From an uncultured Deferribacteraceae bacterium (GTDB lineage: Bacteria > Chrysiogenota > Deferribacteres > CAMZNJ01), in assembly GCA_947313855.1 (NCBI GenBank), contig CAMZNS010000001.1, positions 1 to 60,358 of the forward strand: a DNA stretch of 60,358 nt. Direction: 5' to 3'. Position numbers and translations under genes: made by a program. Under the pieces are notes generated by a model. The model worked only from the letters and a program-made list of their open reading frames with translations. It searched no databases and was not told where the DNA came from. Positions 1 to 60,358 of this stretch are shown one piece after another; within the stretch, counting starts at the first letter, position 1, and every line of letters starts with the position of its first letter.

Positions 1-10
1 GGAGGACGAA

Positions 11-2590
11 ATGTACTACGACTCAAAACGATGTGACAAAAAATGGCAACAAATATGGGAAGAAACAAACGCTTTCCAACTAAAACAAGAGGCACTCACT
101 AAAAAACTCAACAACTACTACGTGCTCGAAATGCTGCCTTACACATCAGGGTCGCTACACATGGGACATGTTAGCAACTACACCATCGGCGATATCATGG
201 CACGATTCAAAACAAAACAAGGTCTCAATGTCCTGCACCCAATCGGATGGGACGCTTTCGGACTACCAGCGGAAAACGCAGCGCGTGACAAAGGACTACA
301 CCCATGGGACTGGACCTTCAACAACATAAACGAAATGAAAAAAGAACTCAAAACACTCGGATTTAGCTACGACTGGTCAAGAGAAATCGCAACAGCAACA
401 AAAGAATACTACAAATGGGAACAAAAACTCTTCATCGAACTCTACAACAAAAATCTAGCCTACAGAAAAAACTCCAAAGTCAACTGGTGCAACGAATGCA
501 AAACCGTGCTCGCTAACGAACAAGTCGAAGACGGACAATGCTGGAGATGCTCAAGCGAAGTGCAAATATCATCCCTACAACAGTGGTTCCTACGTATCTC
601 AAACTACGCACAAGAACTACTCGACGGACTCGATACTCTAGAACAATGGCCACAACGAGTTATACAGATGCAACGAAACTGGATAGGAAAAAGTAGCGGT
701 GCTAACGTTATCTTCCAAATCAAAGATAGCAACACTCAACAGAATATCACTACCTTCACAACAAGACCCGATACACTGTACGGAGTAACATTCATCTCAC
801 TCTCAATCAACTACAGCAACCTAAACAGTATCACTACCTCCGAACACAAACACAATGTCCACAAATTTATCGCCGAAACAAAAGCAGAAAACGCCAAACA
901 AGATAGGAAAGAAAAAGAACAACTAGGTGTCTTCACAGGAGCACTCGCAATACACCCGATCACAGGCAACGAAATACCCATTTACGTCGCAAACTATGTC
1001 TTAGACGAATACGGCTCAGGAGCACTCATGGGTGTACCCGCACACGACGAACGCGACTACGGCTTCGCAACCAAATACAACCTAAACATTCTACCCGTAA
1101 TCGCACCACACAACAACCATGACGACGACTCCTACCAACTACCATACACCGAACACGGTATCATGGTCAACTCACAACAATTTAACGGACAAACAAGCCA
1201 ACAAAGTGCTGAGCAAATTGTGCTACTACTCGAAAGCAAAGGGCTCGGTAACAGCGAAACCACATACCGACTACACGACTGGGGCATCTCACGACAACGA
1301 TACTGGGGAACACCAATACCGATGATACACTGCAACTCTTGCGGGATTGTCCCTGTTGACTTGGACGACCTCCCCGTTGAGCTACCCAAGGACGTCTCCT
1401 TTGAACAGGACGGCAACCCGCTGGATAGACATGAAGAATTCATCAACACCACATGCCCAAAATGCCAAGCACCTGCCAAACGTGAAACAGACACCATGGA
1501 CACATTTATCAACAGCAGCTGGTACTTCCTAAGATACTGCGACCCCAACAACAACGAATCTATCTTCGACAAAAACGCTGTGGACAGCATCAACCCCGTC
1601 AATATCTACGTTGGCGGTGTGGAGCATGCTGTTATGCACCTCCTGTACAGCAGGTTCTTCGTTCGCGTACTACGCGATCTCGGCTACCTATCATTCGACG
1701 AACCGTTCACACACCTCATCACACAAGGCATGGTTTGCATGACAAGCTACAAATGCCCCAACCACTCTTGGCTTTACCCACATGAAGTTGAAGACGATCG
1801 CTGCATCCACTGTCAAAGCAAGGTTACTGTTGGTCGTGCGGAAAAGATGAGCAAGTCGAAAAATAATGTTGTCAACCCCAAAGAGATTATGGAGCAACAC
1901 GGCGTGGATAGCTGTCGTCTGTTTACCATGTTTGCTGGACCTGTGGACAAGGATATTCAGTGGAACCAAGAGGGTATCGAGGGGATGAAGCGGTTTTTAG
2001 GTCGCGTCTACACCCTCGTGGTGCAAAATAAACAACACGTACAGGAACGAAAATACACTACCACCAACTCCGAAACCAACTCGCACCTACTTTACCACAT
2101 AAACTACACAATCAAAAAAGTTACCAACGATATCGAGTCTGTTGCCTTCAACACTGCCATCGCCGCCATCATGGAGCTTGTCAACGTACTCTACAAGGTG
2201 GACACCAAAACCCTGACCAACGACGATCGCAAACTGTTCGGCTACGCTGTGCACTGTGTAATCGAGCTCTTATCCCCATTTGCACCACATATTTGCGAAG
2301 AGCTCAACGAGATTATCGACGGCCATACCGACAGCTATCAGCTCATCTGCAAAACACCTTGGCTGAAATACGACGACAACCACACCACCCTCAATACCGT
2401 AACCATCGGTGTGCAGATTAATGGCAAGATGCGTTCCACCATTACCATCGACGCTGATGCGTCTGAGGAGGACGCTGTTCAACATGCCCGCCAAGACAGC
2501 AAAATACTCGGGTACATCGATGCCGACGGTGTAACCCTCGTCAAAACTATCTACATTAAAGGTAGAATATTAAACTTTATAGTGAAATAA
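11..2590 (+). CDS. leuS: Leucyl-tRNA synthetase
   Basis: Class I aminoacyl-tRNA synthetase that charges tRNA-Leu with leucine in the cytoplasm. The 859 residues match the usual bacterial length. The ATP-binding HMGH is at residues 50-53 and KMSKS at 612-616. A zinc-type CNEC...CWRC pair lies near residues 160-180. The editing (CP1) domain shows TTRPDTLYG, and a second cysteine-rich insert (CPNH...CIHC) lies just before KMSKS. The start is preceded by GGAGGACGAA, so the gene is complete although it begins 10 bases into the window. It heads a compact run leuS, lptE-like, holA, era. The first 1.3 kb is strongly A+C-rich on the coding strand, after which composition becomes balanced. Confidence 0.97.
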   Translation: MYYDSKRCDKKWQQIWEETNAFQLKQEALTKKLNNYYVLEMLPYTSGSLHMGHVSNYTIGDIMARFKTKQGLNVLHPIGWDAFGLPAENAARDKGLHPWDWTFNNINEMKKELKTLGFSYDWSREIATATKEYYKWEQKLFIELYNKNLAYRKNSKVNWCNECKTVLANEQVEDGQCWRCSSEVQISSLQQWFLRISNYAQELLDGLDTLEQWPQRVIQMQRNWIGKSSGANVIFQIKDSNTQQNITTFTTRPDTLYGVTFISLSINYSNLNSITTSEHKHNVHKFIAETKAENAKQDRKEKEQLGVFTGALAIHPITGNEIPIYVANYVLDEYGSGALMGVPAHDERDYGFATKYNLNILPVIAPHNNHDDDSYQLPYTEHGIMVNSQQFNGQTSQQSAEQIVLLLESKGLGNSETTYRLHDWGISRQRYWGTPIPMIHCNSCGIVPVDLDDLPVELPKDVSFEQDGNPLDRHEEFINTTCPKCQAPAKRETDTMDTFINSSWYFLRYCDPNNNESIFDKNAVDSINPVNIYVGGVEHAVMHLLYSRFFVRVLRDLGYLSFDEPFTHLITQGMVCMTSYKCPNHSWLYPHEVEDDRCIHCQSKVTVGRAEKMSKSKNNVVNPKEIMEQHGVDSCRLFTMFAGPVDKDIQWNQEGIEGMKRFLGRVYTLVVQNKQHVQERKYTTTNSETNSHLLYHINYTIKKVTNDIESVAFNTAIAAIMELVNVLYKVDTKTLTNDDRKLFGYAVHCVIELLSPFAPHICEELNEIIDGHTDSYQLICKTPWLKYDDNHTTLNTVTIGVQINGKMRSTITIDADASEEDAVQHARQDSKILGYIDADGVTLVKTIYIKGRILNFIVK

Positions 2591-2629
2591 TACCACCATG
2601 GCACTTGCCACACTTGGGAGATACTTAAC

Positions 2630-5302: not shown

Positions 5303-5310
5303 CACCCCCG

Positions 5311-5668
5311 TGACGTGGTGAGCGTGGTGGACGTGGTGGACGTGGTGAGCGTGGTGAGCGTGGCGGACGTGGTGAGCGTGGTGAGCGTGGTGAGCGTGGT
5401 GAGCGTGGTGGACGTGGTGGACGTGGTGGACGTGGTGGACGTGGCGAGCGTGGTGGACGTGGCGAGCGTGGTGGACGTGGTGAGCGTGGCGGACGTGGTG
5501 GACGTGGTGGACGTGGTGAGCGTGGTGAGCGTGGCGGACGTGGTGGACGTGGTGGACGTGGTGGACGTGGTGAGCGTGGTGGACGTGGCGAGCGTGGTGA
5601 GCGTGGTGAGCGTGGTGAGCGTGGTGGACGTGGTGAGCGTGGTGAGCGTGGTGAGCGTGGCGGACGTT
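5311..5668 (+). repeat. 9-bp minisatellite array, about 39 copies
   Basis: Tandem units of GTGGTGAGC and GTGGTGGAC, with a minority carrying GTGGCG. The array begins 8 bases after the era stop and ends about 50 bases before the tRNA-Phe promoter. Variant units are interspersed rather than sorted into blocks. All frames on both strands stay open because of the 9-bp period, but none carries a credible start or ribosome-binding site, so I read it as non-coding. Confidence 0.95.
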
Positions 5669-5721
5669 GCCAATAAAATAGCGGGGAATACATGTTAATA
5701 CTAGAAACATTATTAAATACC

Positions 5722-5750
5722 TTGACACCCAAGGAACAACCTGTTATAAT
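5722..5750 (+). promoter_or_regulatory. Sigma70-type promoter of tRNA-Phe
   Basis: TTGACA at 5722-5727 and TATAAT at 5745-5750, both perfect consensus, separated by exactly 17 bases. The -10 ends 9 bases before the mature tRNA 5' end, so transcription starts almost at the tRNA. Confidence 0.93.
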
Positions 5751-5759
5751 GTGTGAGTT

Positions 5760-5832
<73 letters not shown>

Positions 5833-5980
5833 CTTTATAACTTCCGTGGATTACCTTCACGCCGGTTATTTACTGTGCCCTTGCACTTGTGGCAACACCC
5901 TTCTTTTTTCCACTCCAACGTCAACGTCAGTCCCGTCAGCAACCGCCAACCCCCTGCTCCCGTCAGCAACCACGGCACCC

Positions 5981-6295: not shown

Positions 6296-6395
6296 ATTGT
6301 TCCTGCTTTAATTTTGGTTTGCCAGCCCTATTATTTTTTAGGGCGACCATGGGGTATGCTACATGGAGTAGCGGTTAAAGGGGTTACATCCGTGG

Positions 6396-7872: not shown

Positions 7873-8013
7873 GCGTGGCGGTGTTGCGTGTCGGTGTTGC
7901 GTGTCGGTGTTGCGTGTCGGTGTTGCGTGGCGGTGTTGCGTGGCGGTGTTGCGTGGCGGTGTTGCGTGGCGGTGTTGCGTGGCGGTGTTGCGTGGCGGTG
8001 TTGCGTGGCGGTT
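7873..8013 (+). repeat. 13-bp minisatellite array, about 11 copies
   Basis: Units GCGTGTCGGTGTT (first copies) and GCGTGGCGGTGTT (later copies), in tandem. The unit length is not a multiple of three, unlike the arrays inside genes. It occupies most of the gap between the symporter stop and the terminator at 8079. Confidence 0.93.
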
Positions 8014-8078: not shown

Positions 8079-8116
8079 AAAAAAGGGGCATAGCAACACA
8101 ACTATGTCCCTTTTTT
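8079..8116. terminator. Bidirectional rho-independent terminator
   Basis: The stem AAAAAAGGGGCATAG pairs with CTATGTCCCTTTTTT, with one G-U pair and an 8-base loop. The flanking A and T runs make it work on both strands. It lies between the convergent symporter and opuCA genes. Confidence 0.88.
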
Positions 8117-8120
8117 GTGT

Positions 8121-8166
8121 CAGGGGTGCCTGTGCAGGGGTGCCTGTGCAGGTGTGCCTGCTCAGG
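8121..8166 (+). repeat. 14-bp triplicate abutting the opuCA stop
   Basis: CAGGGGTGCCTGTG twice and then a third diverged copy, ending on the stop codon of the minus-strand opuCA gene. This is one of several small arrays located exactly at a stop codon. Confidence 0.85.
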
Positions 8167-9307
8167 TACCACCCTTCTGCCTGCGATATATGCTTCCCAT
8201 GGAGATACTGCCCGCAACCTTACCATTTCGCCGTACGGCTAAGGTATCCGAGCCCGTTTTCAGCATCGTCTGAAGCCCCGCCATTAGCGTTTCTTGGGCG
8301 TCAATGGTGCCCCCTTGCACAGCCGTCGTCGTTTCAGTGTTTAGTTCGTGCTCCAAAATATCTTCAATGGTTGTAACACTTAGGTATGCTGCGAAGCCCT
8401 TGGTTTTGAAGAATCTTTGAGTAAACTCAGACTGACCTGGTGATAAAGCTTGTAAGGCATTACCGCTAAATTCGATATGTCCGTTACTGAGTAGCACAAT
8501 TTTTGAGCCTAAGAAGAACGCTTCTTCAATGTCATGGGTGACAAACACAATGGTCTTCCCTAAAGCTTGTTGTACCTCTTTTATCTCTTGGCGTAGTGAG
8601 TGTCGCACAATTTCATCTACAGCACTAAAGGGTTCGTCCATGAGTAGTATGCTTTGGTCAGAAGCCAGTGCACGTGCAACAGCCACTCTTTGTTGTTGTC
8701 CGCCTGAGAGTTCGTGAGGATACCGCTTCAGGAGCGACATATCAAGACGCAGCACCTCTGCCAGCTCCCACACCCTTTTCAAGGACTTGGCTAACGGTTG
8801 TCCTTGAATGCTCATGGTGTATGCGATATTTTTCTCTACGCTCATGTGGGGGAATAGTGATATCTGTTGCACAACATAGCCGATGCTACGTCGTAGTTCA
8901 ATGATGTTCCAGTCCTTGAGTTTTTTTCCGAGGATGTAGACACTCCCGTCGGTGGGTTCAACGAGTCCGTTGATCATCTTCAGGAGTGTTGTTTTGCCCC
9001 CGCCAGAGGAGCCGAGCAGTGTTACGAATTCCCCTTGGTATATGGCGAGGTTGATATTGTCAAGTACGAGGGGTGCGTTGGCGTTCGTGCCGTTGGCGTT
9101 ACCACTAGAGTACACCTTGGAGGTGCCTTTGAAGTGAATCACAGGCTCGCCGTTGGCGTTCGTGCCGTTGGCGTTGGCGTTCGTGCCGTTGGCGTTGCCG
9201 TTCGTGCCGTTGGCGTTGGTTCCGTTGACGTTGCCGTTGGTGCTACTGCTACTGCCGCTGCTACTACTGCTACTGCCGCTGGTTCCCACCTGAGGGTTAA
9301 TCACCAT
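8162..9307 (-). CDS. opuCA: Glycine betaine/choline-type ABC transporter ATPase
   Basis: ATPase subunit of an osmoprotectant importer, 381 residues. Walker A is GSSGGGKTT, the signature is LSGGQQQRVAVARALA, Walker B is ILLMDEPF, and the H-loop is VFVTHDIEE. A short C-terminal CBS-like region contains DTLAVRRNGKVAGSI. The oddity is at the N-terminus. About 50 residues of (G)SSS and NGTNAN repeats precede the ABC domain, and a second NANGTNAN block interrupts the domain between its first beta strands, where relatives have a short loop. A good GGGGGCAGGG site precedes this start, so the repeats are translated. It is the last gene of the ftsY-opuCB-opuCC-opuCA run. Confidence 0.9.
   Translation of the reverse strand: MVINPQVGTSGSSSSSSGSSSSTNGNVNGTNANGTNGNANGTNANANGTNANGEPVIHFKGTSKVYSSGNANGTNANAPLVLDNINLAIYQGEFVTLLGSSGGGKTTLLKMINGLVEPTDGSVYILGKKLKDWNIIELRRSIGYVVQQISLFPHMSVEKNIAYTMSIQGQPLAKSLKRVWELAEVLRLDMSLLKRYPHELSGGQQQRVAVARALASDQSILLMDEPFSAVDEIVRHSLRQEIKEVQQALGKTIVFVTHDIEEAFFLGSKIVLLSNGHIEFSGNALQALSPGQSEFTQRFFKTKGFAAYLSVTTIEDILEHELNTETTTAVQGGTIDAQETLMAGLQTMLKTGSDTLAVRRNGKVAGSISMGSIYRRQKGGT
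9078..9255 (-). repeat. In-frame repeats of 6/12 bp inside opuCA
   Basis: Plus-strand units built on GTTGGC and GTTCGTGCC encode Asn-Gly-Thr-Asn-Ala tracts on the minus strand. The array is split in two by about 35 bases of ordinary ABC-domain sequence (9113-9148). All units keep the frame. Confidence 0.88.
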
Positions 9308-10252: not shown

Positions 10253-10336
10253 AATAAACTCCTTGTTAATGGTACTCGTTGGTACTCGTTGGGATAACTA
10301 GTCTTCAGGTGTTCCGTATTTATATATCTTCAGATT

Positions 10337-11067: not shown

Positions 11068-12276
11068 TTAAGTCAAATGTTCAGATACGTCGCCAAGTGC
11101 TCCGCCATGTACCCCTCTAAAGGTGCGAAGATAGCCACTAATGAAGTCGCCAACAAAGGCATACGGCTGAAACGCTGCTAACTGATCCACACCCTCGCCA
11201 TAAGACACAAACCGTATGGGCAAACCCAAACCTTGAACAATCTGAAACAAAGAGCCTGGCTGCAAATGGGCATCAGCCTTTGTCAAAACAATACCAGTGG
11301 GGGCAATGTAGTCTGAAAATACTTTCGCTTGAAGAATGGAATTGCTACCAAGTGTGGCGTCAATCACCAGCAGAACCTCGTGGGGAGCACCCGCAGACAA
11401 CTTCCTCAACACACGAGTAGACTTCTCCAACTCACGCATGAGGTTGTCGTTCCCCTGTAGACGACCAGATGTGTCACACAGCAGTAGGTCAGACTCGGTG
11501 GCTATCCCCCGACTGAGAGCGTCATACATTACTGCAGCCGAATCGGCACCCTGCTGTTGGGAAATCACCTCTACACCAACGGTGTCGCCCCAATGTTGTA
11601 GCTGATCTACCGCCGCTGCACGGTATGTATCCGCCGCCGCAATGAGCACTTTTTTGCCCAAAATGTTTTTGTAGTAATGGGCAAGTTTCGCAAGACTTGT
11701 TGTTTTGCCCACACCGTTGACCCCAACCAGCATTGCCACACTAGGGTGAACACCTCGGCGAAGCAGGGAGAATTCGCCGTTGTCGCTCGCTTGTGTGGTG
11801 GTGTTGGTGGTGTTGGTGGTGTTGGTGGTGTTGGTGGTGTTGGTGGTGTTGGTGGTGTTGGTGGTGTTGGTGGTGTTGGTGGTGTTGGTGGTGTTGGTGG
11901 TGTTGGTGGTGTTGGTGGTGTTGGTGGGCAACTTGAGCATATCTAGCAGGTTTGTGTTGAGCTCCTCCACGAAGTGCATCATATTGTTTATGTTCCCCGT
12001 TAGGATATCGGCTTGCAGTTGTTCCACCGCTTGGGTTGTGGCATCCAGCCCCATGTCGGAGGTGATGAGGAACTCCTCTAGGGGATCGAGGGCTTGTGCC
12101 ATGTTCCCTTTGTTTAGTGTCATCCCTTTGAGTTGCGTTGGCGTTAGTGTTGGCGTTAGTGTTGGCTGTGTTGGCTGTGTTGGCTGTGTTGGCTGATTAT
12201 TGCTGTTGCTACCCTTGCTGTTACGGTTTTCCGTGCCATTAGTTTTGTTCTTTTTGCCAAAGATATTTTTCAACAT
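11068..12276 (-). CDS. ftsY: Signal recognition particle receptor FtsY (divergent)
   Basis: Membrane-targeting GTPase that receives SRP-ribosome complexes, 402 residues. G1 is GVNGVGKTT; DTYRAAAVDQLQHW, G3 DTSGR and a late GEGVDQL are recognisable. Three things are unusual. A (Asn-Thr-Thr)n tract of about 44 residues (roughly 117-160) separates the N and G domains. The N-terminus carries PTQ and TLTP repeats. The normally invariant TKLDGTAKGG region reads TKADAHLQPG: the guanine-specificity Asp is kept but the DGTAKGG closing loop is lost. GGAGACATAACTCA precedes the ATG. The gene heads the run into opuCB, opuCC and opuCA. Confidence 0.9.
   Translation of the reverse strand: MLKNIFGKKNKTNGTENRNSKGSNSNNQPTQPTQPTQPTLTPTLTPTQLKGMTLNKGNMAQALDPLEEFLITSDMGLDATTQAVEQLQADILTGNINNMMHFVEELNTNLLDMLKLPTNTTNTTNTTNTTNTTNTTNTTNTTNTTNTTNTTNTTNTTNTTTQASDNGEFSLLRRGVHPSVAMLVGVNGVGKTTSLAKLAHYYKNILGKKVLIAAADTYRAAAVDQLQHWGDTVGVEVISQQQGADSAAVMYDALSRGIATESDLLLCDTSGRLQGNDNLMRELEKSTRVLRKLSAGAPHEVLLVIDATLGSNSILQAKVFSDYIAPTGIVLTKADAHLQPGSLFQIVQGLGLPIRFVSYGEGVDQLAAFQPYAFVGDFISGYLRTFRGVHGGALGDVSEHLT
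11796..11929 (-). repeat. 9-bp repeat, about 15 copies, inside ftsY
   Basis: Near-perfect GTGTTGGTG units on the plus strand, which encode Asn-Thr-Thr on the minus strand. The array is exactly in frame and falls in the linker between the N and G domains of FtsY. Sequence purity is much higher than in the era-downstream array, which suggests recent expansion. Confidence 0.95.
12128..12196 (-). repeat. In-frame 9/12-bp repeats at the ftsY 5' end
   Basis: Plus-strand GTTGGCGTTAGT (12 bp, two copies) and GTTGGCTGT (9 bp, several copies) encode the Thr-Leu-Thr-Pro and Gln-Pro-Thr tracts near residues 28-47 of FtsY. Confidence 0.85.
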
Positions 12277-16290: not shown

Positions 16291-16377
16291 AGGGGTGTTG
16301 CGAATATTATCGGCACGCTAGGGGTGCCATGATGATGCTTGGGCATGATCATGGTGCCCTTTTTCGCAAGGCAACAC

Positions 16378-16520
16378 GGGACAAGGTGCACGGAACAAGG
16401 TGCACGGAACAAGGTGCACGGCACACGGTGCACGGCACATGGCAACACCGCACACGCAACACGGAACAAGGTGCACGGCACATGGCAACACCGCACACGC
16501 AACACGGGGCACCGCACACG
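16378..16520 (+). repeat. Compound repeat downstream of clpC
   Basis: Overlapping units of AACAAGGTGCACGG and variants (CACACGGTGCACGG), then a larger unit containing CATGGCAACACCGCACACGC in two copies. The array fills most of the gap between the convergent clpC and acpS stops. I see no gene in it. Confidence 0.85.
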
Positions 16521-16540
16521 CAACCGCACGCAACCGTGTG

Positions 16541-17062
16541 TTACGTGATGGCGATGGTGGCACGAGATACCGCAACAGCATAGGCACGGCAGTGCGATAT
16601 GGACACGTCCACCATAATCCTCGCACCAACCCCAGACGCAATGCTCCCCCTAAGGTGCTCATTGGCAGGCATCGCCAAGAGACGACTGAGGATAACTGCC
16701 TCCGTCTTTTGGGATAGTGTCAGTGTTACTTGTGGGGTCATGGGCATGGGCACAGGTGTCATGGGCATGGGGACAGGTGGTGTCATGGGCATGGGGACAG
16801 GTGTCATGGGCATGGGCACAGGTGGCGTCATGGGCAGAATCTCCATGGAGTGGAACGTTACCCCATTGGTAAGCCCTGTTTGCAGTGTTTTGGAGATGGA
16901 TTCCTTGGCAGCAAACCTCCCAGCAAGGAACGAGATTCGTCTGTTATGTTCGATGAACAGCTCCATCTCGTTGGGTGTGAGAATACGTTGTGCAAACCTA
17001 TCCCCCAACTTGTGGAAGGCGTTTTGAATACGTTGTATTTCGATAATATCACAGCCGATCAT
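16541..17062 (-). CDS. acpS: Holo-[acyl-carrier-protein] synthase with repeat insertion
   Basis: Transfers 4'-phosphopantetheine from CoA to acyl carrier protein. The catalytic Mg-binding DIIEI is at residues 5-9 and FAAKES near 49-54. The C-terminal VSISHCRAYAVAV also fits. Typical AcpS has about 120-130 residues; this one has 173. The excess is a Met-Pro-Met-Thr-Pro repeat (about residues 78-108), in the strand region following the catalytic helix, plus extra sequence after it. GGAGGGCAG precedes the ATG. It is the last gene of the minus-strand run that begins at rpsF. Confidence 0.88.
   Translation of the reverse strand: MIGCDIIEIQRIQNAFHKLGDRFAQRILTPNEMELFIEHNRRISFLAGRFAAKESISKTLQTGLTNGVTFHSMEILPMTPPVPMPMTPVPMPMTPPVPMPMTPVPMPMTPQVTLTLSQKTEAVILSRLLAMPANEHLRGSIASGVGARIMVDVSISHCRAYAVAVSRATIAIT
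16738..16832 (-). repeat. In-frame repeat inside acpS
   Basis: Plus-strand GTCATGGGCATGGG(C/G)ACAGGTG units of about 21 and 24 bp alternate and encode Met-Thr-Pro-(Pro)-Val-Pro-Met-Pro on the minus strand. All units are multiples of three, so the frame survives. Confidence 0.9.
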
Positions 17063-20294: not shown

Positions 20295-20610
20295 TTGGGG
20301 CTCGGGGCTCGGGGCTCGGAACCCAGATGCCGGAACCCGACTAAGCATCGGGATGCCAGAACTCAGAACCCAGAACCCGACTAAGCATCGGGATGCCAGA
20401 ACTCAGAACCCAGAACCCGACTAAGCATCGGGATGCCAGAACCCAGAACCCAGAACCCGACTAAGCATCGGGATGCCAGAACCCAGATGCCGGAACCCGA
20501 CTAAGCATCGGGATGCCAGAACCCAGAACCCAGAACCCGGAACCCGACTAAGCATCAGGATGCCAGAACTCAGAACCCAGAACCCGACTAAGCATCGGGA
20601 TGCCAGAAGC
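20295..20610 (-). repeat. 40-bp tandem repeat with internal palindrome, 7 copies
   Basis: Units starting CCCGACTAAGCATCGGGATG occur at 20336, 20376, 20416, 20456, 20496, 20543 and 20583. Spacing is 40 bp except for one 47-bp step. Each unit contains GCATCGGGATGC, a perfect 12-bp palindrome that could form a hairpin. Copies differ at a few sites, with CAGAACCC sub-repeats. There are no unique spacers, so it is not a CRISPR array. Confidence 0.93.
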
Positions 20611-25722: not shown

Positions 25723-25790
25723 ACGCAGACGTAGACGCAGACGCAGATTAAATTAAAATAAATTCAACATCAAAGCAGGTAGCACAAACT

Positions 25791-33287: not shown

Positions 33288-34229
33288 ATGATGGGTACGC
33301 TTCATGCTAAGGAAGATTATTCTCAATACCCTATCAGCGATAGTCAGAACGACCACGATCAAAACAACTTCGGTCAAAACGATCACGGTCTTGCTGGCTT
33401 CAACACTCAGGGTGAGACCGCAATCCCTGCACAGCTTGAACATCACACAGAAACCGATCAGGTTTCTGAACGTGTGCGTTCTATCATCGGTGGTAAAAAC
33501 ATGTTTCGTGTGCATACCCCCAGCGATGACAGTACGTGGCAGGACGCCACACAAAAAACTGCACACTGGGGCGAATTAAGTGAGGGTGGGGGTCATGCAG
33601 GGACGCTCCCCACCCCTCCTAATACACACAACCTCACAACACACAACCTCACAACATTAACCTCACAACATCAACCTCACAACATCAACCTAAAATCAAG
33701 CATGCTAGAAGCAACCATCAACAACTACTGCATCGCCGAGCAGTTACAGTTGCGTTCCGACAATTCCCAGTGGGAATTGCTCCCCAAGGGGTGCACCGAC
33801 GCCATGATCAACAGCGAGTTTTGCTACGGCGATAGTAGCATCATGGGAGCACGGCTCCAAGGAGCACAGCCACACGGAGCACAGCCACACGATTACGATT
33901 CACAGCCACACGGAGCACAGCCACACGGAGCAGAGTCACACGGAGCAGAGTCAGAGAGTATCGGTAAGTATCTGTTGGATATTGGTAGTCCCCAAGATGT
34001 TGCTGCGGCTTACTCGTCTATGTCGTCCGCGTCAGGTGCGTCGTCCGCGTCGGTTGCGTCGTCTTCAACGCTGTACCGAACTCTGTCCAAAACTCTGTCC
34101 AAGGTTATGACGTCCTACACTGAGTCCACGGACGCACATGGTTCCATTTCCAACAATCGCCATGCCTTGGAGCTTGTCCGCGATATTGAGCGATCGTTCC
34201 ACGGCAAGACAATTACTGTTAGTGCCTAG
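33288..34229 (+). CDS. Unknown repeat-rich protein
   Basis: A 313-residue soluble protein I cannot assign. The N-terminal 100 residues are rich in Asp, Asn, Gln and His. A better-conserved-looking core is LEATINNYCIAEQLQLRSDNSQWELLPKGCTD. Four repeat patches interrupt it: HNLTT (about 113-130), GAQPH/GAESH (about 190-223), SSASxAS (about 243-260) and LSKT. There is no signal peptide or membrane helix. AAGGGCGATGG lies before the ATG. Its composition suggests a disordered protein; continuous coding with a usable start supports a real gene. Confidence 0.55.
   Translation: MMGTLHAKEDYSQYPISDSQNDHDQNNFGQNDHGLAGFNTQGETAIPAQLEHHTETDQVSERVRSIIGGKNMFRVHTPSDDSTWQDATQKTAHWGELSEGGGHAGTLPTPPNTHNLTTHNLTTLTSQHQPHNINLKSSMLEATINNYCIAEQLQLRSDNSQWELLPKGCTDAMINSEFCYGDSSIMGARLQGAQPHGAQPHDYDSQPHGAQPHGAESHGAESESIGKYLLDIGSPQDVAAAYSSMSSASGASSASVASSSTLYRTLSKTLSKVMTSYTESTDAHGSISNNRHALELVRDIERSFHGKTITVSA
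33850..33962 (+). repeat. In-frame 15-bp repeat in the unknown gene
   Basis: Units of GGAGCACAGCCACAC and GGAGCAGAGTCACAC, interrupted by GATTACGATTCACAGCCACAC, encode Gly-Ala-Gln-Pro-His and Gly-Ala-Glu-Ser-His. Confidence 0.88.
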
Positions 34230-34234: not shown

Positions 34235-34262
34235 GCACCACGCACCACGCACCACGCACCAC
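34235..34262 (+). repeat. 7-bp repeat just after a stop
   Basis: GCACCAC repeated four times, beginning 6 bases after the stop at 34229. The 7-bp unit would break a frame, which fits its non-coding position. A 15-bp duplication (GGTTGTCGCGGTCAT) at about 34302-34331 forms the recX stop region. Confidence 0.85.
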
Positions 34263-34293
34263 GCAACGGCACCGCCACCCACAAACGTGCACC

Positions 34294-35010: not shown

Positions 35011-36711
35011 CTAGTTGTTTACGGTTGTGAAGTGTGTTTGCAGTAGTTGGGTAGTGTTGAGGATGGCTCTGTTGGCACTGGCGTTTCGAATGGTATCCCG
35101 TCCTAGGACCTTGAGGTGTTCGGGCACCTTAGTATTTCCATGGAGCATTGTTGGCATGGTCTGAAAGTTGTACTGACAGCCGTATTCCGCCAATACCTCC
35201 GGTTTGTTCGAGCTGTTGCCACGGGAACATATTGCCACATGGATAAACACCAACCCCACAGGCTTGCCACCCTTTTCGGTATCAGAGTCGGGTCCAGCGA
35301 TGCCGGTGATGCTCACAGCAACCACATGACGCCTACGACCACTTTCCGCAACATGCTCGTCAACATGCTCGCCACCATGCTCGCCACCATGCTCAGCACT
35401 GTTGAGGGCAGTTTTCGCCACACCTAATGCCATCTCTTGTGCACACTGCTCACTTACGGCACCATGTTCGACGAGTGTACGTGTTTTTACCCCGAGCAGG
35501 CTCTGTTTGATGCTGTTGGAGTATGCTACAACGCCGCCGGCAAAGACCTTTGAGGCTCCCGGCATGTGTGTCATCATCCCCGCAACCAGCCCACCGGTAC
35601 AGCTCTCCGCCACAACCATCTCCACATTGTGCTTATTTAGTGTGTCCATTAGTATCTGTACTAACGTGCCACCACCCTTGATAACAGGGGGGTAGGGGAG
35701 TTCGCTGTTGGTGGTACTGTTCACAGTAACTTTTGTTGGCGGTGCAATCCCAACCCCACGACCCTGAGTAACACTATCCTGCACCCTATCCTGCACCCTA
35801 TCCACAATATTGTTAAACATGGTTGGCGTAATATTTGTGCCTTGTGCAACACTAGTGGCGTGGGGGATATTGAGACGCATGTAAGCCCCATAGGGGTAGG
35901 CGTTGATGGTTATTTGGCTTTCGTCATAGTTGGCAAACTCGCCACCGCGGGCAAACAGGGCATCCATGGCGTTGGCAATAGCCGATTCCCGCACACCCAT
36001 GAAAAACCCTTCAGCAAGCTCAGTGTTGTGTGCAACGTGAGGCGTCGTTGTATCGTGATTCAGAATATGGGGGACCACAAACGTGTGTAGTAGGTAGTCC
36101 ATCTCCCGCGGGACGCCCGGCAAAACGTAGATGCGTGTTGTGCCAGTGCCAACACGGTCGGACGACACAACATAACCGTGAACCAGCCCCATACCGCGTG
36201 AAGAGACTGTCGCCCCCTTGGGTAGCATGTATGTTTTTTTGTACTGTACGGGGATGGTCGTCTCCAAGTTGTGGGCAGTAGCGTTACCGTGAGCAGTAGC
36301 GTTACCGTGGGCAGTAGCGTTACCGTGGGCAGTAGCGTTACCGCCACCATTACCATTGCCCGCCAGCCCCTTGGCGATGATGGTGTTCATCACGTCAGCA
36401 GAGGGTTCGAGATCGAGCCCACACAGCTTTGCCACACATTGTGTTGTAATGTCGTCGTGTGTTCCCCCCAGTCCACCGGTAACGATGATAATGTCCACCC
36501 GTTTCGCCCACCCATCCAAGGACTGCACAATCCCCTCTTCGTCATCGAGTATGGAGGTGTTTGCAATATTTTTGACCCCGATGCGTCTTAGAGCACGGGC
36601 GATCTCCACCGTATTGGTATCCATTACGTCGCCAGCGACAAGTTCGTTGCCGATGGTGACAATCGCAGCTGTGCTCCATGGCTTGGTGGTGGTTTGATTT
36701 TTGTCCTTCAT
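35011..36711 (-). CDS. cinA: CinA-family protein (MoCF domain + nicotinamide-nucleotide amidase)
   Basis: Two-domain protein of NAD salvage (pyridine nucleotide deamidation). The N-terminal MoCF-like domain reads AAIVTIGNELVAGDVMDTN ... VTGGLGGTHDDIT ... GVPREM. The C-terminal amidase reads VVAESCTGGLVAGMM ... GVVAYSNSIKQSLLGV ... SITGIAGPDSDT. It has 566 residues against about 410-420. Two repeat insertions account for part of the excess: NATAHG in the first domain (about 121-148) and EHGGEHGGEHVDEH in the amidase (about 438-456). It lies between pgpA and recX, a conserved neighbourhood. Confidence 0.93.
   Translation of the reverse strand: MKDKNQTTTKPWSTAAIVTIGNELVAGDVMDTNTVEIARALRRIGVKNIANTSILDDEEGIVQSLDGWAKRVDIIIVTGGLGGTHDDITTQCVAKLCGLDLEPSADVMNTIIAKGLAGNGNGGGNATAHGNATAHGNATAHGNATAHNLETTIPVQYKKTYMLPKGATVSSRGMGLVHGYVVSSDRVGTGTTRIYVLPGVPREMDYLLHTFVVPHILNHDTTTPHVAHNTELAEGFFMGVRESAIANAMDALFARGGEFANYDESQITINAYPYGAYMRLNIPHATSVAQGTNITPTMFNNIVDRVQDRVQDSVTQGRGVGIAPPTKVTVNSTTNSELPYPPVIKGGGTLVQILMDTLNKHNVEMVVAESCTGGLVAGMMTHMPGASKVFAGGVVAYSNSIKQSLLGVKTRTLVEHGAVSEQCAQEMALGVAKTALNSAEHGGEHGGEHVDEHVAESGRRRHVVAVSITGIAGPDSDTEKGGKPVGLVFIHVAICSRGNSSNKPEVLAEYGCQYNFQTMPTMLHGNTKVPEHLKVLGRDTIRNASANRAILNTTQLLQTHFTTVNN
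35343..35400 (-). repeat. 12-bp repeat in the cinA amidase domain
   Basis: Plus-strand ATGCTCGCCACC and variants (ATGCTCGTCAAC), four or five copies, encode His-Gly-Gly-Glu. In frame. Confidence 0.85.
36268..36345 (-). repeat. 18-bp repeat in the cinA MoCF domain
   Basis: GTGGGCAGTAGCGTTACC and one-base variants, four copies, encode Asn-Ala-Thr-Ala-His-Gly. In frame and nearly perfect. Confidence 0.92.
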
Positions 36712-37501: not shown

Positions 37502-40216
37502 ATGATTGCCATATTTACGAAGGTTCTTTTTAAATCGTACCAGGATCGTATCCTAAAAACTGCCAACCCCATTGTTGACAAGGTCAACTCCTTCGAAGCA
37601 TCCATCCGAGAGCTATCCGACGACGAACTTGCCGCGAAAACCGTGGAATTTCAACAACGTCTTGCCGATGGCGAAAAACTTAACAACATTATGCCTGAAG
37701 CGTTTGCCGTTGTTCGCGAAGCCTCTGTTCGCACCATCGGAATGCGTCACTACGACGTTCAGGTTGTCGGCGGCTACTTCCTCAACAAAGGCAACATCGC
37801 TGAAATGAAAACCGGTGAAGGGAAAACCCTCGTCGCATCCCTCGCCCTGTACCTCAATAGCCTCACAGGCAAAGGGGCACACCTTGTTACGGTGAACGAC
37901 TACCTTGCACGACGTGACGCCACTTGGATGGGCCCCATCTACAAATTCCTCGGCATGAGCGTCGGCATTGTCCAGAGCAACAACACCTCCTACATACTCG
38001 AATCCGACACCAACAACAAACACACCACCACAGCCGTCGAAGCAACTCGCACACAAGCTTACGCCGCCGATATCACTTACGGCACCAACAACGAATTCGG
38101 CTTCGACTACCTACGCGACAACATGAAACACTCCACCGAAGAATACCTCCAACGGGGACACAACTTCGCCATTGTTGATGAAGTTGACTCAATCCTGATA
38201 GACGAAGCCCGCACACCTCTGATTATCAGCGGTACTGCACCATCGGATTCCGAAGGGTTTATCATGGCAAACGATATCGCTAAAAACCTCATTCGCGACA
38301 CCCATTACGAAGTCATCGAAAAAACCAAAACAATCAAACTACTAGACGCAGGTATCGATGAAGCTCAAAAACAGCTCGGCGTCGACAACCTCTACCACAC
38401 CTCAAATGTGGACAAAATACACTACATTAGCAACGCACTACGTGCTCACGGTGCCTACAAACTCGACGTTGACTACGTTATCGACGACAACAAAATAGTC
38501 ATTGTCGACGAATTCACAGGCAGGATGATGCCCGGTAGACGATACGGCGAAGGTCTCCACCAAGCCATCGAAGCCAAAGAGGGGATAATCATCGAAAGCG
38601 AAAACCAAACCCTCGCCTCCATCACCTTCCAAAACTACTTCCGCATGTACGACAAACTCGCCGGAATGACCGGTACAGCACTCACCGAAGCAGAAGAATT
38701 CCAACAAATCTACAAGCTGGGCGTTATCTCAATACCCACAAACGTACCCGTTACACGCACAGACGATGTTGACGTCATCTACAAAACTCAAACAGCCAAA
38801 TTCAACGCCATCATCAAAGATATTGTCCATATCCACGAACAGGGTCGACCAATACTAATCGGAACCGTATCCATCGAAACATCAGAATTCATCAGCTCCC
38901 TACTCAAAAAACACAGCATAGCACACAAAGTTCTGAACGCCAAACACCACACCCAAGAAGCACACATTATCGAAAGTGCAGGACAACTCGGAGCTCTCAC
39001 CATCGCCACAAACATGGCAGGACGTGGTACCGATATTAAACTTGGCGACGGCGTTGCCGCAATCGGCGGACTCCACATCATCGGAACAGAACGACACGAA
39101 TCACGACGCATCGACAACCAACTCCGCGGTCGTGCCGGCCGACAAGGAGACCCCGGCTCATCACGCTTCTACATCTCCATGGAAGACACACTCATGAGGA
39201 TATTCAACGGCGACAAAGTGAAATCACTCATGAACACTCTACGCATCCCAGACGACGAACCTATCCAAAATAAACTAATCTCACGATCCATTCAATCCTC
39301 ACAAAAGAAAGTTGAAGCTCACAACTTCGAAATCCGCAAACACCTACTCGAATACGACAACATCAATAACGAACAACGACACGTTATCTACGCCATGCGT
39401 AAAGAAGCCATCAACAGCAATAGCGTCGACTACATCAACGAAGTTACAACAGAATTCCTCAACAACGTTGTCGACACCATCGTACAAGAATACACAACAC
39501 AAGGCACACCCAACTACCACAACAAAGACTGGCTGAGGGAACAACTACTCTTACAATTCGGCATACAGGTGGACGAAAATGGCAACAACCTAAACACCGA
39601 CGCCGACGCCGACGACAACCTCAACCTGTCAAACGGTGCCACACTAGCCTCAGATATCATCAAAATCGTCGAAAAACAGATACTGTCACAAAAATCCATG
39701 ATGGGAAGCCTCTACCTCGAAGTTGGCAAGGATATTATGCTCCGTTGCATCGATACCAAATGGATAACCCACCTACAAAGCATGGCTCACCTACGCGACA
39801 GCGTCTCACTGCGTGGCTACGGACAAAAAGATCCACTCATCGAATACAAAAAAGAGGCGTACGGCATGTTTGTCGAACTCCTGCAATCCATCGAAAGCGA
39901 ATACCTACGCCTACTCCTTAGTGTACGACTAACACAAGGAACACCACCACAAAATAGCAACACCCTCAAAGCAGCCAACGCCAAAGCTACACACCAATCC
40001 CACGGCTCACTACTAGCACCATCCGCCGGCGGAAACCCAAACACCAATGGTAACAGTAGCAGTGGCAGTAGCAGTAGCAGTGGCAATCAACCCGAAAAGC
40101 CGAAAGGGGTAACAATTCGCAACACCGGTCAGAAGATCGGGCGAAACCAACCATGCCCATGCGGTAGCGGTAAGAAATACAAGAACTGCCACGGCTCCCT
40201 CACCACCAAGGGGTAG
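37502..40216 (+). CDS. secA: Preprotein translocase ATPase SecA
   Basis: Motor of Sec secretion, 904 residues. Walker A is MKTGEGKTLVA (about 103-109) and Walker B is VDEVDSILIDEARTPLIISG. GRMMPGRRYGEGLHQAIEAKE, the NMAGRGTDI motif and QLRGRAGRQGDPGSS are present. It ends in the zinc-binding SEC-C motif CPCGSGKKYKNCHG that contacts SecB and lipids. A short Ser-Gly repeat (about 849-861) extends the disordered linker before SEC-C. AAGGGGAA precedes the ATG. A tandem repeat begins right at the stop. Confidence 0.97.
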   Translation: MIAIFTKVLFKSYQDRILKTANPIVDKVNSFEASIRELSDDELAAKTVEFQQRLADGEKLNNIMPEAFAVVREASVRTIGMRHYDVQVVGGYFLNKGNIAEMKTGEGKTLVASLALYLNSLTGKGAHLVTVNDYLARRDATWMGPIYKFLGMSVGIVQSNNTSYILESDTNNKHTTTAVEATRTQAYAADITYGTNNEFGFDYLRDNMKHSTEEYLQRGHNFAIVDEVDSILIDEARTPLIISGTAPSDSEGFIMANDIAKNLIRDTHYEVIEKTKTIKLLDAGIDEAQKQLGVDNLYHTSNVDKIHYISNALRAHGAYKLDVDYVIDDNKIVIVDEFTGRMMPGRRYGEGLHQAIEAKEGIIIESENQTLASITFQNYFRMYDKLAGMTGTALTEAEEFQQIYKLGVISIPTNVPVTRTDDVDVIYKTQTAKFNAIIKDIVHIHEQGRPILIGTVSIETSEFISSLLKKHSIAHKVLNAKHHTQEAHIIESAGQLGALTIATNMAGRGTDIKLGDGVAAIGGLHIIGTERHESRRIDNQLRGRAGRQGDPGSSRFYISMEDTLMRIFNGDKVKSLMNTLRIPDDEPIQNKLISRSIQSSQKKVEAHNFEIRKHLLEYDNINNEQRHVIYAMRKEAINSNSVDYINEVTTEFLNNVVDTIVQEYTTQGTPNYHNKDWLREQLLLQFGIQVDENGNNLNTDADADDNLNLSNGATLASDIIKIVEKQILSQKSMMGSLYLEVGKDIMLRCIDTKWITHLQSMAHLRDSVSLRGYGQKDPLIEYKKEAYGMFVELLQSIESEYLRLLLSVRLTQGTPPQNSNTLKAANAKATHQSHGSLLAPSAGGNPNTNGNSSSGSSSSSGNQPEKPKGVTIRNTGQKIGRNQPCPCGSGKKYKNCHGSLTTKG

Positions 40217-40262
40217 GGGTCACGGGGGTCACGGGGGTCACGGGCATCGTGGCATCGTGGGC
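40217..40262 (+). repeat. 9/10-bp repeat at the secA stop
   Basis: GGGGTCACGG units followed by GGCATCGT copies, starting at the base after the secA stop. Short and degenerate. Confidence 0.8.
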
Positions 40263-40315
40263 AACATGCTGAGCACGCTGAACACACTCAACCCTCGCCA
40301 CCCCCAACTCCCCCC

Positions 40316-40344
40316 TTGACGTATGATCAAATATGTGCAATAAT
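40316..40344 (+). promoter_or_regulatory. Sigma70-type promoter of rpsU
   Basis: TTGACG (40316-40321) and AATAAT (40339-40344) with a 17-base spacer. The leader of about 80 bases contains CCTAGGGTAACCTAGG (40383-40398), able to form a short hairpin before the ribosome-binding site. Confidence 0.7.
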
Positions 40345-40431
40345 AAGTGTCTGACAGTGTTAACACACTCGAAAAACATGCTCCTAGGGTAACCTAGGTC
40401 ATCTAAAATTTTAAAAAAGGTGGTGATTGTT

Positions 40432-41887
<1,456 letters not shown>

Positions 41888-50627: not shown

Positions 50628-50733
50628 TTGCGTGTGCGTGTGCGTGTGCGTGTGCACCGCCTTGCGTGTGTGCGTGTGCGTGTGCACCGCCTTGCGTGTG
50701 CGTGTGCGTGGTTGCGTGCAATGTGTGCACCCA
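50628..50733 (+). repeat. GTGTGC repeat between convergent mqnA and truA
   Basis: GCGTGTGCGTGT runs punctuated twice by GCACCGCCTT, starting 2 bases after the mqnA stop and reaching the truA stop. Unit 6 bp within longer 27-33 bp blocks. Confidence 0.88.
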
Positions 50734-53441: not shown

Positions 53442-53449
53442 GGTGTATT

Positions 53450-54544: not shown

Positions 54545-54666
54545 CATGCCGAATAACCATAAAATAGAAGCAGAATAATTATTTGAAAAATATGCACCTT
54601 AGGGGAACGGGGAGGGTATCGCAAGCCACCCTGCCCCAAGGCAACATCATTGAGGAGTTAATACCT

Positions 54667-56067: not shown

Positions 56068-56131
56068 GAAACACGTGACTCCATGTGACTCCATACTCGC
56101 ACAAGCAAACAAACTTTAGGGTGGTGACTTA

Positions 56132-57202: not shown

Positions 57203-57260
57203 CAGTAGCAGTAGCATGACCACAACCAACCACCGCTACACCACAAACCTGAAGGGAACA

Positions 57261-58754: not shown

Positions 58755-58758
58755 ACAA

Positions 58759-59937
58759 ATGAAAGTGTACCTAGTAGCAGGGGAACAAAGCGGCGATACG
58801 CACGGAAGCGAAGTCATCGCACAACTACTGAAAATACACCCAAATATCAACCTCAGAGGCGTCGGCGGACAACAACTCGAAAAACTAGGACAACATCAAA
58901 TCTTCAACATCAAACAGATGGAACTCGTCGGAATCTCGCAAGTACTACGCAACGTCGCGAATATCTACTACATGCTCAACGAAATAAACAAAGACATGGA
59001 CAACTTCAAACCCAACATCATTCTACTCATCGACTACCCCGGTTTCAACCTCAGACTAGCACAACGAATCAGAAAACATACCAAACACATCAACAACACA
59101 ACCATAATCTACTACATACCACCAAAAATATGGCTCTGGGGATACAGACGCGTTTTCGACCTCAAACAATACGCAAACAAAGTCTTCTGCATCTACCCAC
59201 ACGAACAAAAAATACTGCAAAACGAAGGCGTGAACGCAACTTACGCTGGCAACCCCGCAGCGAGTAACAGTGATACAAACAACACACGCCACAACAACAC
59301 CGAAACTCGCACGGAACTCGCAAAACACATACAGTTCCACAACAACGAACAAAAACAACTACTCAACAAAGGAACAAAAATACTCGGCTGGTACCCCGGA
59401 AGCAGACAAAAAGAGATTGACAGCAACTACAAAGAAATTCTCAAAAGCATCGAACTACTCAACAACTACTACATCGTCGTCGCCGCACTACCAATCAACA
59501 TCTCAACAGAACAATTCCACAACATCATAGGCACAACAAACATCAACACCATTCACAACAAAACACACTTGCTCATGCAAAATACGCACACAGCGTGGGC
59601 AGCATCAGGCACCGTAACACTAGAACTCGCCATGCACAAAGTACCAACCATACTCTACTACCACATCTCGCAACCATCTCTCACCATCGGAAAAACCATC
59701 ACCGGAATCAAACGCATCGGCATCGTCAACATCATACTCGACAAAAATATCATGCCCGAACTCATCAACTCACAACTCAACGCAAACAACCTACTCAAAC
59801 ACACCGAACAACTAGAAAAACAACGCACAGCAATTCAACAAGACCTACAAGAAGTCGCAACACTACTCGGAAACCACAACCCAGCTCAAACTGTGGCACA
59901 ATGGATAAGCGACTCGCAACAAAACACGCATCGCTAG
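58759..59937 (+). CDS. lpxB: Lipid-A-disaccharide synthase
   Basis: Joins UDP-diacylglucosamine and lipid X to give the lipid A disaccharide, 392 residues. [15 protein letters not shown] opens the protein, followed by [40 protein letters not shown] and [12 protein letters not shown]. Usual spellings are changed in places: GNPAASNSD instead of (G/A)HP at the donor loop, next to an Asn-Thr-rich insert (about 175-190). Composition is strongly A+C-rich. It is the last gene in the window. Confidence 0.93.
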
Positions 59938-60212
59938 CACGCACGGTTGTGGCACGGCTCGCACGGTTGTGGCACGGTTCGCACGGTTGTGGCACGGTTC
60001 GCACGGCTCGCACGGTGGCACGGTTCGCACGGTTCGCACGGCTCGCACGGTTGGCACGGTTCGCACGGTTCGCACGGTTCGCACGGCTCGCACGGTTCTC
60101 GCACGGTTGACACGGCTCGCACGGTTCGCACGGTTCGCACGGCTCGCACGGTTCGCACGGTTCGCACGGTTGGCACGATTGGCACGGTTGTGGCACGGTT
60201 CTCGCACGGTTG
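59938..60212 (+). repeat. 9-bp minisatellite array after lpxB, about 30 units
   Basis: TTCGCACGG, CTCGCACGG and TTGGCACGG units (9 bp), with 12-bp TTGTGGCACGG-type variants at both ends. It starts at the base after the lpxB stop. Variants are mixed along the array. The open frames it creates have no start site. Confidence 0.95.
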
Positions 60213-60358
60213 ACACCCCAAACGCAAAAAAGGGGAGCAGAACGCCCCCCTCATGGTCACAAAAGTCCCTCGCACACAAACGTGTCGCAAGACTCCGCTA
60301 CTGGTTACTCGAAAATACTAGTATTCGAAAATATTCTCACCCTCAGGGATAATACTAT
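60213..60358. other. Window end with perfect palindrome
   Basis: No gene seen. AATACTAGTATT (about 60316-60327) is a perfect 12-bp palindrome in AT-rich sequence just before the window edge, and could be an operator for the next gene. A weak GGGG/CCCC stem at 60232-60250 has no T-run. Confidence 0.45.

Follow-up and report, generated by a model that had tools for sequence, protein, structure and literature searches.

Short tandem duplications are about thirty times denser in this bacterium's genus than in reference bacteria. Perfect tandem duplications (period 10–60) number 504 per Mb in this genome and 420 per Mb in a sister species, against 16 per Mb in 80 reference loci, and tandem arrays detected by TRF at a score of at least 50 make up 4.7% of 1.02 Mb of this small genome, likewise 4.7% of 1.02 Mb in the sister species, and 0.37% of the 1.37 Mb of the reference loci, which come from diverse genomes. 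We consider it probable, at roughly three chances in four, that slippage at short repeats is hyperactive across the genome and that selection on reading frame and promoters filters its products. In this model, short segments, mostly of 6–25 bp and preferentially in sequence with an A+C-rich and a G+T-rich strand, would frequently be duplicated in tandem throughout the genome, genes included, by misalignment between short direct repeats; the duplications would afterwards grow, acquire mutations, expand anew from sub-units and be lost, a cycle that would leave sister species with few of each other's units. Selection would purge most of them, including nearly all of those in genes that are not multiples of 3 and, in front of genes, the ones that interfere with promoters and ribosome-binding sites. 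Constraint would be weakest past the stop codon, particularly where two genes converge, and arrays would fill the space there up to the stop. Repeats would thus crowd after gene ends mainly because they do least harm there, and not because stop codons attract them.

Coding arrays, although filtered for frame, were nearly as numerous as intergenic ones (253 versus 285 in this genome and 237 versus 291 in the sister), which indicates that the process strikes genes too. Their periods were divisible by 3 in 94% and 97% of cases, respectively, versus 37% and 38% for intergenic arrays, whose periods were at most 25 bp in 228 of the 285 cases in this genome. By bases, arrays occupied 18.6% of intergenic versus 2.1% of coding DNA. 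The repeats are real. Both assemblies are fragmented and incomplete (49 contigs here; about 70 in the sister, which is 86% complete) and some arrays lie at contig ends, as an assembly or binning artefact might produce, but such an origin is extremely improbable: an assembler is blind to the frame that nearly all coding arrays keep, array density is equal in two separate assemblies, and 324 of 366 intergenic arrays (period 9–40, at least 2.5 copies) are over 400 bp away from sequence ends. No 16S gene was found in this genome by a search that detected only 9 of 14 controls. Gene calls for all position statistics came from a greedy in-house hexamer model, not a published gene finder, which read 843,310 of 1,009,198 bases as coding in this genome and 829,591 of 1,000,870 in the sister. 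ORFs that were more than 40% repeat were excluded (10 of 799 and 13 of 786), as were gaps shorter than 30, 60 or 80 bp and gaps with N from various counts, and gaps longer than 1,200 bp from the divergent-centre and two-copy-gradient counts.

An earlier note on the window, the whole 60,358-nucleotide stretch analysed here, had described tandem repeats at most stop codons. TRF recovered the long arrays that it named after era, the symporter, secA, 'mqnA' and lpxB, although the one at secA has just 3.2 copies, together with short ones, among them the three in Table 1. Among 48 merged arrays (score at least 50), 17 lay within 30 bp of a stop codon, compared with 5.4 ± 2.1 for shuffled positions, and 7 within 30 bp of a start, compared with 5.5 ± 2.1. 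The excess near stops is confirmed, but it reaches about a quarter of stop codons instead of most, 31 of the 48 arrays are farther than 30 bp from any stop, and 26 are intragenic, several of them N-terminal or central; a number of these had been omitted from the earlier listing. As for gene names, among ten proteins tested against NCBIfam, Era, SecA, GuaA, S21 and AcpS matched above cut-offs; LpxB, the DctA/GltP-type symporter and the ProV-like ABC ATPase gave significant matches below them; and neither the protein named 'mqnA' nor the product of the gene ending at 34229 had a match at E ≤ 1e-5.

Table 1 Tandem arrays of the window, with their setting and their counterparts in the sister species
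Array	Position	Strand	Setting and comparison	Detected by	Earlier note
9/18/45-bp GT-rich, 39 copies of GTGAGCGTG	5310–5660	+	first base 8 bp past era end; sister orthologous gap: different unit, 28 bp	TRF	named
13-bp GCGTGGCGGTGTT ×10.8	7873–8012	+	3' of DctA/GltP-type symporter gene; sister gap without GCGTGGCGGTGTT unit, weak CACACAC stretch only (score 33)	TRF	named
14-bp	8116–8160	-	end of convergent ABC ATPase gene, past terminator-like hairpin 8079–8116	TRF	
in-frame arrays	9149–9283	-	N-terminal part of ProV-like ATPase (gene start); best profile match starts at residue 82	TRF	omitted
10-bp duplication TGGTACTCGT ×2.3	10270–10292		sister has single copy		
9-bp ×14.7	11796–11927	-	gene interior	TRF	omitted
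28-bp	16371–16524		convergent gap; sister unit 17 bp, other sequence	TRF	
21/45-bp	16732–16836	-	within holo-ACP synthase-like gene; TIGR00516 match spans residues 1–76 of 173	TRF	omitted
40-bp ×7.1	20319–20608		sister orthologous gap: TGTGTGTGCGTCGAC ×17.7	TRF	
ACGCAG, short	25723–25747			TRF	named
four separate arrays	33343–34063	+	interior of gene 33291–34229	TRF	omitted
GCACCAC, short	34235–34265			TRF	named
18-bp ×4.1	36271–36343	-	within gene; nearest start 368 bp, nearest stop 381 bp	TRF	omitted
9-bp GGGGTCACG ×3.2	40216–40244	+	touches secA stop; sister: CGTGGTCGG ×25.6; 40305 to 40537, extending into rpsU, 98% identical to sister DNA	TRF	named
6/30-bp GT	50628–50710	+	convergent gap; sister: TGCAGGTGTG ×13.4	TRF	named
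GTGACTCCAT, short	56075–56094			TRF	named
9-bp GCACGGTTC ×27.9	59941–60211	+	3' of lpxB; sister: 11-bp unit, common core GCACGGTT	TRF	named

The excess after stops extends beyond the window. An array touched the 50 bp after the stop in 193 of 780 genes in the part of this genome that was read and 194 of 756 in the sister; for the 50 bp upstream of the start, the counts were 65 of 771 and 73 of 747. The note had proposed a process acting at gene ends, and several observations speak against a stop-directed process as the main cause. Coding arrays were evenly distributed along the length of genes (KS p = 0.20 and 0.23), with 25 within 60 bp of the stop versus 30 within 60 bp of the start in this genome, and 27 versus 24 in the sister. 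Array coverage right at the stop was lower than about 100 bp away. In co-directional gaps, fractions of 0.40 and 0.48 of edges in the two species lay within 10 bp of the stop, and uniform placement that barred arrays from the 60 or 100 bp ahead of the next start gave 0.32–0.46 and 0.43–0.55. Random placement in the remaining space reproduces this abutment; for the most part, stop codons are probably not what is targeted. In convergent gaps of the sister, edges were nearer to stops than under uniform placement (0.67 versus 0.46 ± 0.05); the values for this genome were 0.52 versus 0.43 ± 0.06. Confinement of arrays between stop and terminator was also rejected, as they occurred on both sides of terminator-like hairpins in the 21 and 20 co-directional gaps with a recognisable one (0.32 and 0.30 in the 100 bp after the hairpin; 0.24 and 0.20 before it).

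It is also conceivable, if unlikely, that most duplications originate in transcribed 3' regions, through termination, R-loops or replication–transcription collisions, so that gene ends are true hot spots. Such an origin would fit the gradient of arrays across gap classes, which in both species fell from 46–47% of convergent gaps through 17% of co-directional gaps to 5–7% of divergent gaps. It would also fit the scarcity of repeats (4.5% and 7.9%) in DNA that is separated by over 100 bp both from a preceding terminator-like hairpin and from the start that follows, the 3–4-fold drop in isolated two-copy duplications from convergent gaps to divergent centres, and the divergent centres themselves: these contained 4–9% repeats, compared with 31–34% in co-directional DNA 50–200 bp after a stop, both at least 120 bp from any start. 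Divergent-gap centres are thus poorer in repeats than shadowing by starts accounts for. Constraint measured by substitutions was rejected as the cause of this deficit, since non-repeat bases in the two settings were similarly conserved (84–86% of aligned bases). However, the even spread of coding arrays, the frequency of arrays after hairpins, which is as high as before them, and the lower coverage at the stop itself all argue against birth in 3' regions. Selection near divergent starts acts on duplication length: up to 120 bp from a divergent start, isolated two-copy duplications stood at 27% of the convergent level (0.50 versus 1.83 per kb) and arrays of at least 80 bp at 3% (0.06 versus 2.30). 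We infer that selection, not supply, lies behind most of the 3' bias, although part of the excess downstream of genes remains and may reflect a link with transcribed 3' regions.

Slippage, which the note had offered as a possible explanation, is the likely mechanism of duplication. Isolated two-copy duplications lay between direct repeats of k ≥ 3 in 117 of 194 and 82 of 135 cases in the two species, whereas chance predicts 12–13%. When these 329 duplications were compared with the sister species, 46 were single-copy there, 28 of them with k ≥ 3; 97 were duplicated there too, 7 were ambiguous, 113 had poorly conserved flanks, 60 were without an ortholog and 6 were messy. The k distribution is flatter than simple slippage predicts, and some two-copy cases may have arisen by contraction of arrays. 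Replication slippage is the probable maker, in preference to template switching or unequal recombination. Loss of the flap nuclease, MutS, RecJ, ExoVII or RecA was rejected as the cause: mutS, recA, recJ, xseA and the Pol I 5' nuclease are all present in this genome, so we found no defect among the tested repair genes that explains the density. The mutS1 match exceeded its cut-off in both species; the Pol I nuclease domain 5_3_exonuc_N was found in this genome but not in the sister, whose assembly is 86% complete.

Units turn over between the two species. Among orthologous gaps with arrays in both species, units were closely similar in 2 of 66, and one gap retained its unit at 2.8 versus 5.8 copies, whereas most gaps carried other units in this comparison of sister species, not of strains. 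Total replacement is nevertheless too strong a description, because 34 of 69 orthologous array pairs shared an 8-mer (null 5.1) and 22 a 10-mer (null 0.8). The note's view that this is not one mobile repeat was supported, as units differ from locus to locus. Of 99 gaps with an array in only one species, 30 had unit-like sequence in their counterpart in the other species (null 11%), and for 69 of 99 the unit was untraced there. One shared motif was rejected: in lists of the 16 most frequent k-mers at each k = 5–8, none was far above Markov expectation, in a rough comparison of observed arrays with expected occurrences. A tie between array orientation and gene strand was also rejected, as G+T on the upstream-gene strand was broadly distributed without clear polarity (means of 0.43 and 0.46 in co-directional gaps).

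Some units recur at unrelated loci and may need something beyond local slippage. Among 324 internal intergenic arrays, 48 had a match of at least 35 bp and 88% at a non-orthologous internal place, compared with 2–6 in five Markov-3 unit controls, and 300 intergenic arrays yielded 13 pairs with exact unit sharing (null mean 0.1–0.2), several at contig ends. Two 10-bp arrays of the sister, about 2.5 kb apart, were 90% identical over 207 bp. The 13-bp array next to the symporter matched, at 88–91%, an unrelated sister site (G001:C10:49754–49916), and its unit was absent from the orthologue of each site. This is not a case of two clean empty sites, as this genome's C10 counterpart carries a weak, related 11-bp GT-rich array (GCTGTGGCGTG ×3.8, score 47); the sister array may be a product of local growth whose likeness to the one in the window is coincidental. 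We therefore think it very unlikely that pieces of arrays are copied to new sites and then expand, which would make the arrays in part a mobile minisatellite family: 276 of the 324 arrays were unmatched, the matched set still includes likely orthologs left unmapped, and half of orthologous pairs share local 8-mers. Slightly less doubtful is partial seeding in trans of AC/GT-rich array pieces into unconstrained sites, followed by expansion; if true, gene 3' ends would be places where mobile minisatellites of a class with flexible sequence land.

With hyperactive slippage filtered by selection as the preferred reading, a genus with such dense duplications is a natural experiment on where a genome tolerates new DNA; it displays directly how frame is filtered, how starts cast a shadow and how 3' space stays open. 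A pattern of repeats at stop codons can emerge largely without targeting, which bears on similar patterns elsewhere, and, as the tested repair genes are present, the lineage offers a chance to find the cause of minisatellite hyperactivity. The arrays resemble minisatellites (VNTRs) in their head-to-tail units of about 6–100 bp and in gene periods divisible by 3, but exceed the 80 reference loci about 13-fold in array coverage and 26–31-fold in perfect-duplication density. Repeat units in Ehrlichia ruminantium are about 150 bp. That species has intergenic tandem repeats (Collins 2005 and Frutos 2006, as cited in PMC10710844) and, in the account given there, shares with this one a small genome, noncoding repeats and an active process, there expansion and contraction and here unit turnover. 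Its coding ratio is about 64% according to the same account (PMC10710844), whereas about 83% of the sequence here was read as coding. Here, too, repeats are mainly noncoding by bases, although array numbers are near equal; periods are mostly at most 25 bp, genic arrays nearly as many as intergenic ones, and strands biased to AC/GT, unlike in E. ruminantium. The REP/BIME elements of E. coli prefer gene 3' ends. These palindromic units are described as intergenic and often clustered (PMC2884548), a location common to them and the arrays here, but they form one palindromic sequence family, whereas units here vary by locus. Small dispersed repeats, as summarised from Elhai et al. in PMC2884548, are tandemly repeated, roughly 20 bp long and perhaps mobile; the arrays here are likewise short tandem units, some recurring at unrelated loci, but show no dominant sequence family among the commonest k-mers listed.

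The abundance of tandem repeats is a real, strong, unusual and genome-wide feature. We analysed 1,017,588 bases of this genome (G000), a 1.34-Mb assembly of 49 contigs with a completeness of 90.7% whose contig C1 is the window, and 1,020,034 bases of the sister species G001 (about 1.3 Mb, completeness 86%, SecA 93% identical), the sole same-genus relative compared; the remaining 38 listed relatives are related at class level only. An RF00177 search of the G000 assembly found no 16S rRNA (control detection, 9 of 14). Genes were called with a hexamer-based script (799 in this genome and 786 in the sister, of which 789 and 773 were kept; paired values follow this order throughout), and TRF was run with one match, mismatch and indel setting. 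Arrays scoring at least 50 covered 4.7% of each genome (559 and 542 arrays). Coverage was 0.37% in 80 diverse bacterial loci (1.37 Mb, 73 arrays), which all surround secA and so serve as a reference, not a random sample, and 0.27% in eight class relatives, a small sample around secA (3 arrays in 44 kb). Perfect tandem duplications with periods of 10–60 occurred at 504 and 420 per Mb; the diverse loci had 16 per Mb.

An earlier note had claimed that repeats sit at most stop codons and had suggested a process acting at gene ends as a possible explanation. The long arrays that it named after era, a symporter gene, secA, mqnA and lpxB are present in the window by TRF, and the excess at stops is real, although it involves about a quarter of stops, not most. 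Within 30 bp of a stop lay 17 of the 48 merged window arrays, versus 5.4 ± 2.1 at shuffled positions; for starts, the figures were 7 of 48 versus 5.5 ± 2.1. An array touched the 50-bp stretch downstream of the stop for 193 of 780 genes (sister, 194 of 756) and the 50-bp stretch upstream of the start for 65 of 771 (sister, 73 of 747), and 26 of the 48 window arrays lay inside genes. Repeats made up 18.6% and 18.1% of intergenic bases and 2.1% and 2.0% of coding bases, with shares of 46% and 47% in convergent gaps, 17% and 17% in co-directional gaps and 5.5% and 7.4% in divergent gaps. Co-directional gaps 200 bp or longer had a coverage of 0.20 over the 20 bp immediately following the stop, a maximum of 0.36 (sister, 0.35) at 80–100 bp and only 0.03 (sister, 0.01) in the final 20 bp before the next start.

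Four results argue that the stop codon itself is mostly not the target. First, there were 253 coding versus 285 intergenic arrays (sister, 237 versus 291), and periods were divisible by 3 in 94% and 97% of coding arrays, versus 37% and 38% of intergenic ones. Coding arrays are thus nearly as many and mostly keep the frame; therefore, the process acts on genes too, with frameshifts removed by selection. Second, the coding arrays in genes no shorter than 450 bp (238 and 228 arrays) were uniformly positioned from start to stop (KS p 0.20 and 0.23), with 30 and 24 within 60 bp of the start and 25 and 27 within 60 bp of the stop. Third, in a simulation that closed the 60 or 100 bp immediately upstream of the start and placed arrays randomly in the rest of each co-directional gap, 32–46% of gaps had an edge no more than 10 bp from the stop (observed, 40%), and 43–55% for the sister (observed, 48%); leaving the start side open gave 13% and 15%. 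Convergent gaps showed a mild excess of edges near a stop (52% versus 43 ± 6%; sister, 67% versus 46 ± 5%). Fourth, terminator-like hairpins were flanked on both sides by arrays (before the hairpin, 0.24 and 0.20; over the 100 bp beyond it, 0.32 and 0.30), a comparison resting on 21 of 263 and 20 of 254 gaps. The earlier note tied a genome-wide feature too closely to stop codons.

Extra homology of at least 3 bp, in the form of a short direct repeat, was found at 117 of 194 and 82 of 135 isolated perfect two-copy duplications (n = 329), compared with 12–13% of random hypothetical duplications nearby. The sister was single-copy at 46 of the 329, and 28 of these 46 had such homology; the rest were duplicated in both species (97), ambiguous (7), poorly conserved in their flanks (113), without an ortholog (60) or messy (6). 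For arrays present in one species only (99 gaps), the other species' gap held unit-like sequence in 30 (null, 11%). The duplication data fit a putative misalignment between short direct repeats 10–20 bp apart.

Among 501 syntenic gaps, two counts put the number with an array in both species at 66 and 69. Units were closely similar (score at least 0.7) in 2 of the 66, between in 13 and below 0.5 in 51, yet orthologous array pairs often had an 8-mer (34 of 69; null, 5.1) or a 10-mer (22 of 69; null, 0.8) in common. Arrays therefore seem to be re-made, often out of local sequence, instead of preserved. Beside the changed post-secA array, 233 bp extending into rpsU are 98% identical to the sister. 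Non-orthologous internal matches (at least 35 bp, at least 88%), a set containing some likely unmapped orthologs, occurred for 48 of 324 internal intergenic arrays, compared with 2, 3, 5, 5 and 6 in five Markov-3 controls. Exact unit sharing also exceeded chance: 300 intergenic arrays yielded 13 pairs (null, 0.1–0.2), but several of the arrays involved were at contig ends. One 13-bp array resembles a sister array at an unrelated site, and its unit is absent from the orthologue of either site. Because this genome has a weak array at the counterpart of the sister site, growth from similar local sequence is a fair alternative to copying.

Features of the window and their counterparts (window positions unless a contig is named)
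Feature	Position	This genome	Sister (G001)
13-bp array	7873-8012	88-91% identical to sister array	C10:49754-49916, behind different gene
Counterpart of C10 site		weak GT-rich array, GCTGTGGCGTG x3.8, score 47	
Hairpin, likely a two-way terminator	8079-8116	A and T tracts on either side; between two arrays of convergent gap	counterpart exists
Two-copy duplication	10270	duplicated	single-copy
Holo-ACP synthase-like gene, 173 aa	16541-17062 (minus)	array mid-gene, 16732-16836; TIGR00516 match, residues 1-76	
312-aa gene	33291-34229	four separate arrays, one more in 3' flank; protein without NCBIfam match	
Array after secA		GGGGTCACG x3.2	CGTGGTCGG x25.6
Upstream of and within rpsU (S21)	40305-40716	directly adjoins fully changed array	96-98% identical (secA stretch, 85%)
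Array after lpxB		GCACGGTT core; 9- and 11-bp units in the two species	core kept

Some observations stand against a filter by selection on reading frame and promoters. At least 120 bp from any start, repeats made up 31–34% of co-directional DNA 50–200 bp past the stop and 4–9% of divergent centres, and non-repeat bases were about equally conserved in the two settings (84–86% of aligned bases); fourfold sites were 72% conserved between the species. Repeats were also scarce (4.5% and 7.9%) in DNA lying over 100 bp downstream of a hairpin and likewise over 100 bp upstream of the following start. Arrays of at least 80 bp fell from 2.30 per kb in convergent gaps and 1.54 on the co-directional stop side to 0.34 in divergent centres and 0.06 near divergent starts, and this steeper drop near starts is a prediction of purifying selection. 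For isolated two-copy duplications, the corresponding densities were 1.83, 1.62, 0.47 and 0.50 per kb; this shallower drop may reflect selection on 10–20 bp insertions or a true difference in birth rate.

Units had one A+C-rich strand: G+T content varied about one half with a variance of 0.054–0.068, versus 0.020–0.022 expected for independent bases, and purine content varied less than expected (0.012–0.013). Reference arrays (n = 66) lacked this contrast (0.018 versus 0.024). Purine/pyrimidine alternation in units was 0.62–0.63 versus 0.52 in shuffled units. The same patchiness, weaker, was found in the rest of the genome (40-mer variance 0.016–0.018, versus 0.007 in diverse loci). This strand asymmetry is strong and patchy outside repeats in both species; on contig C17, mean third-codon-position G+T was 0.29 in plus-strand and 0.59 in minus-strand genes.

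Among candidate causes of the high density, loss of repair genes was examined: mutS, recJ, recA and xseA were found in both species, and this genome also has the Pol I 5' nuclease domain. Proteins tended towards greater length. The open frames of SecA (918 and 907), RecA (377 and 378) and Pol I (890) ranked first in length among best matches from the genomes searched, and RecJ, ExoVII and MutS had frames close to the top, not longest. Such lengths are as expected if in-frame duplications add length, six proteins being few. A literature search covering few subscription journals found no paper on bacterial gene-end repeat concentration through a selective filter of this kind; we conclude that these genomes probably have a hyperactive short-repeat duplication process, the products of which survive where they are least harmful.
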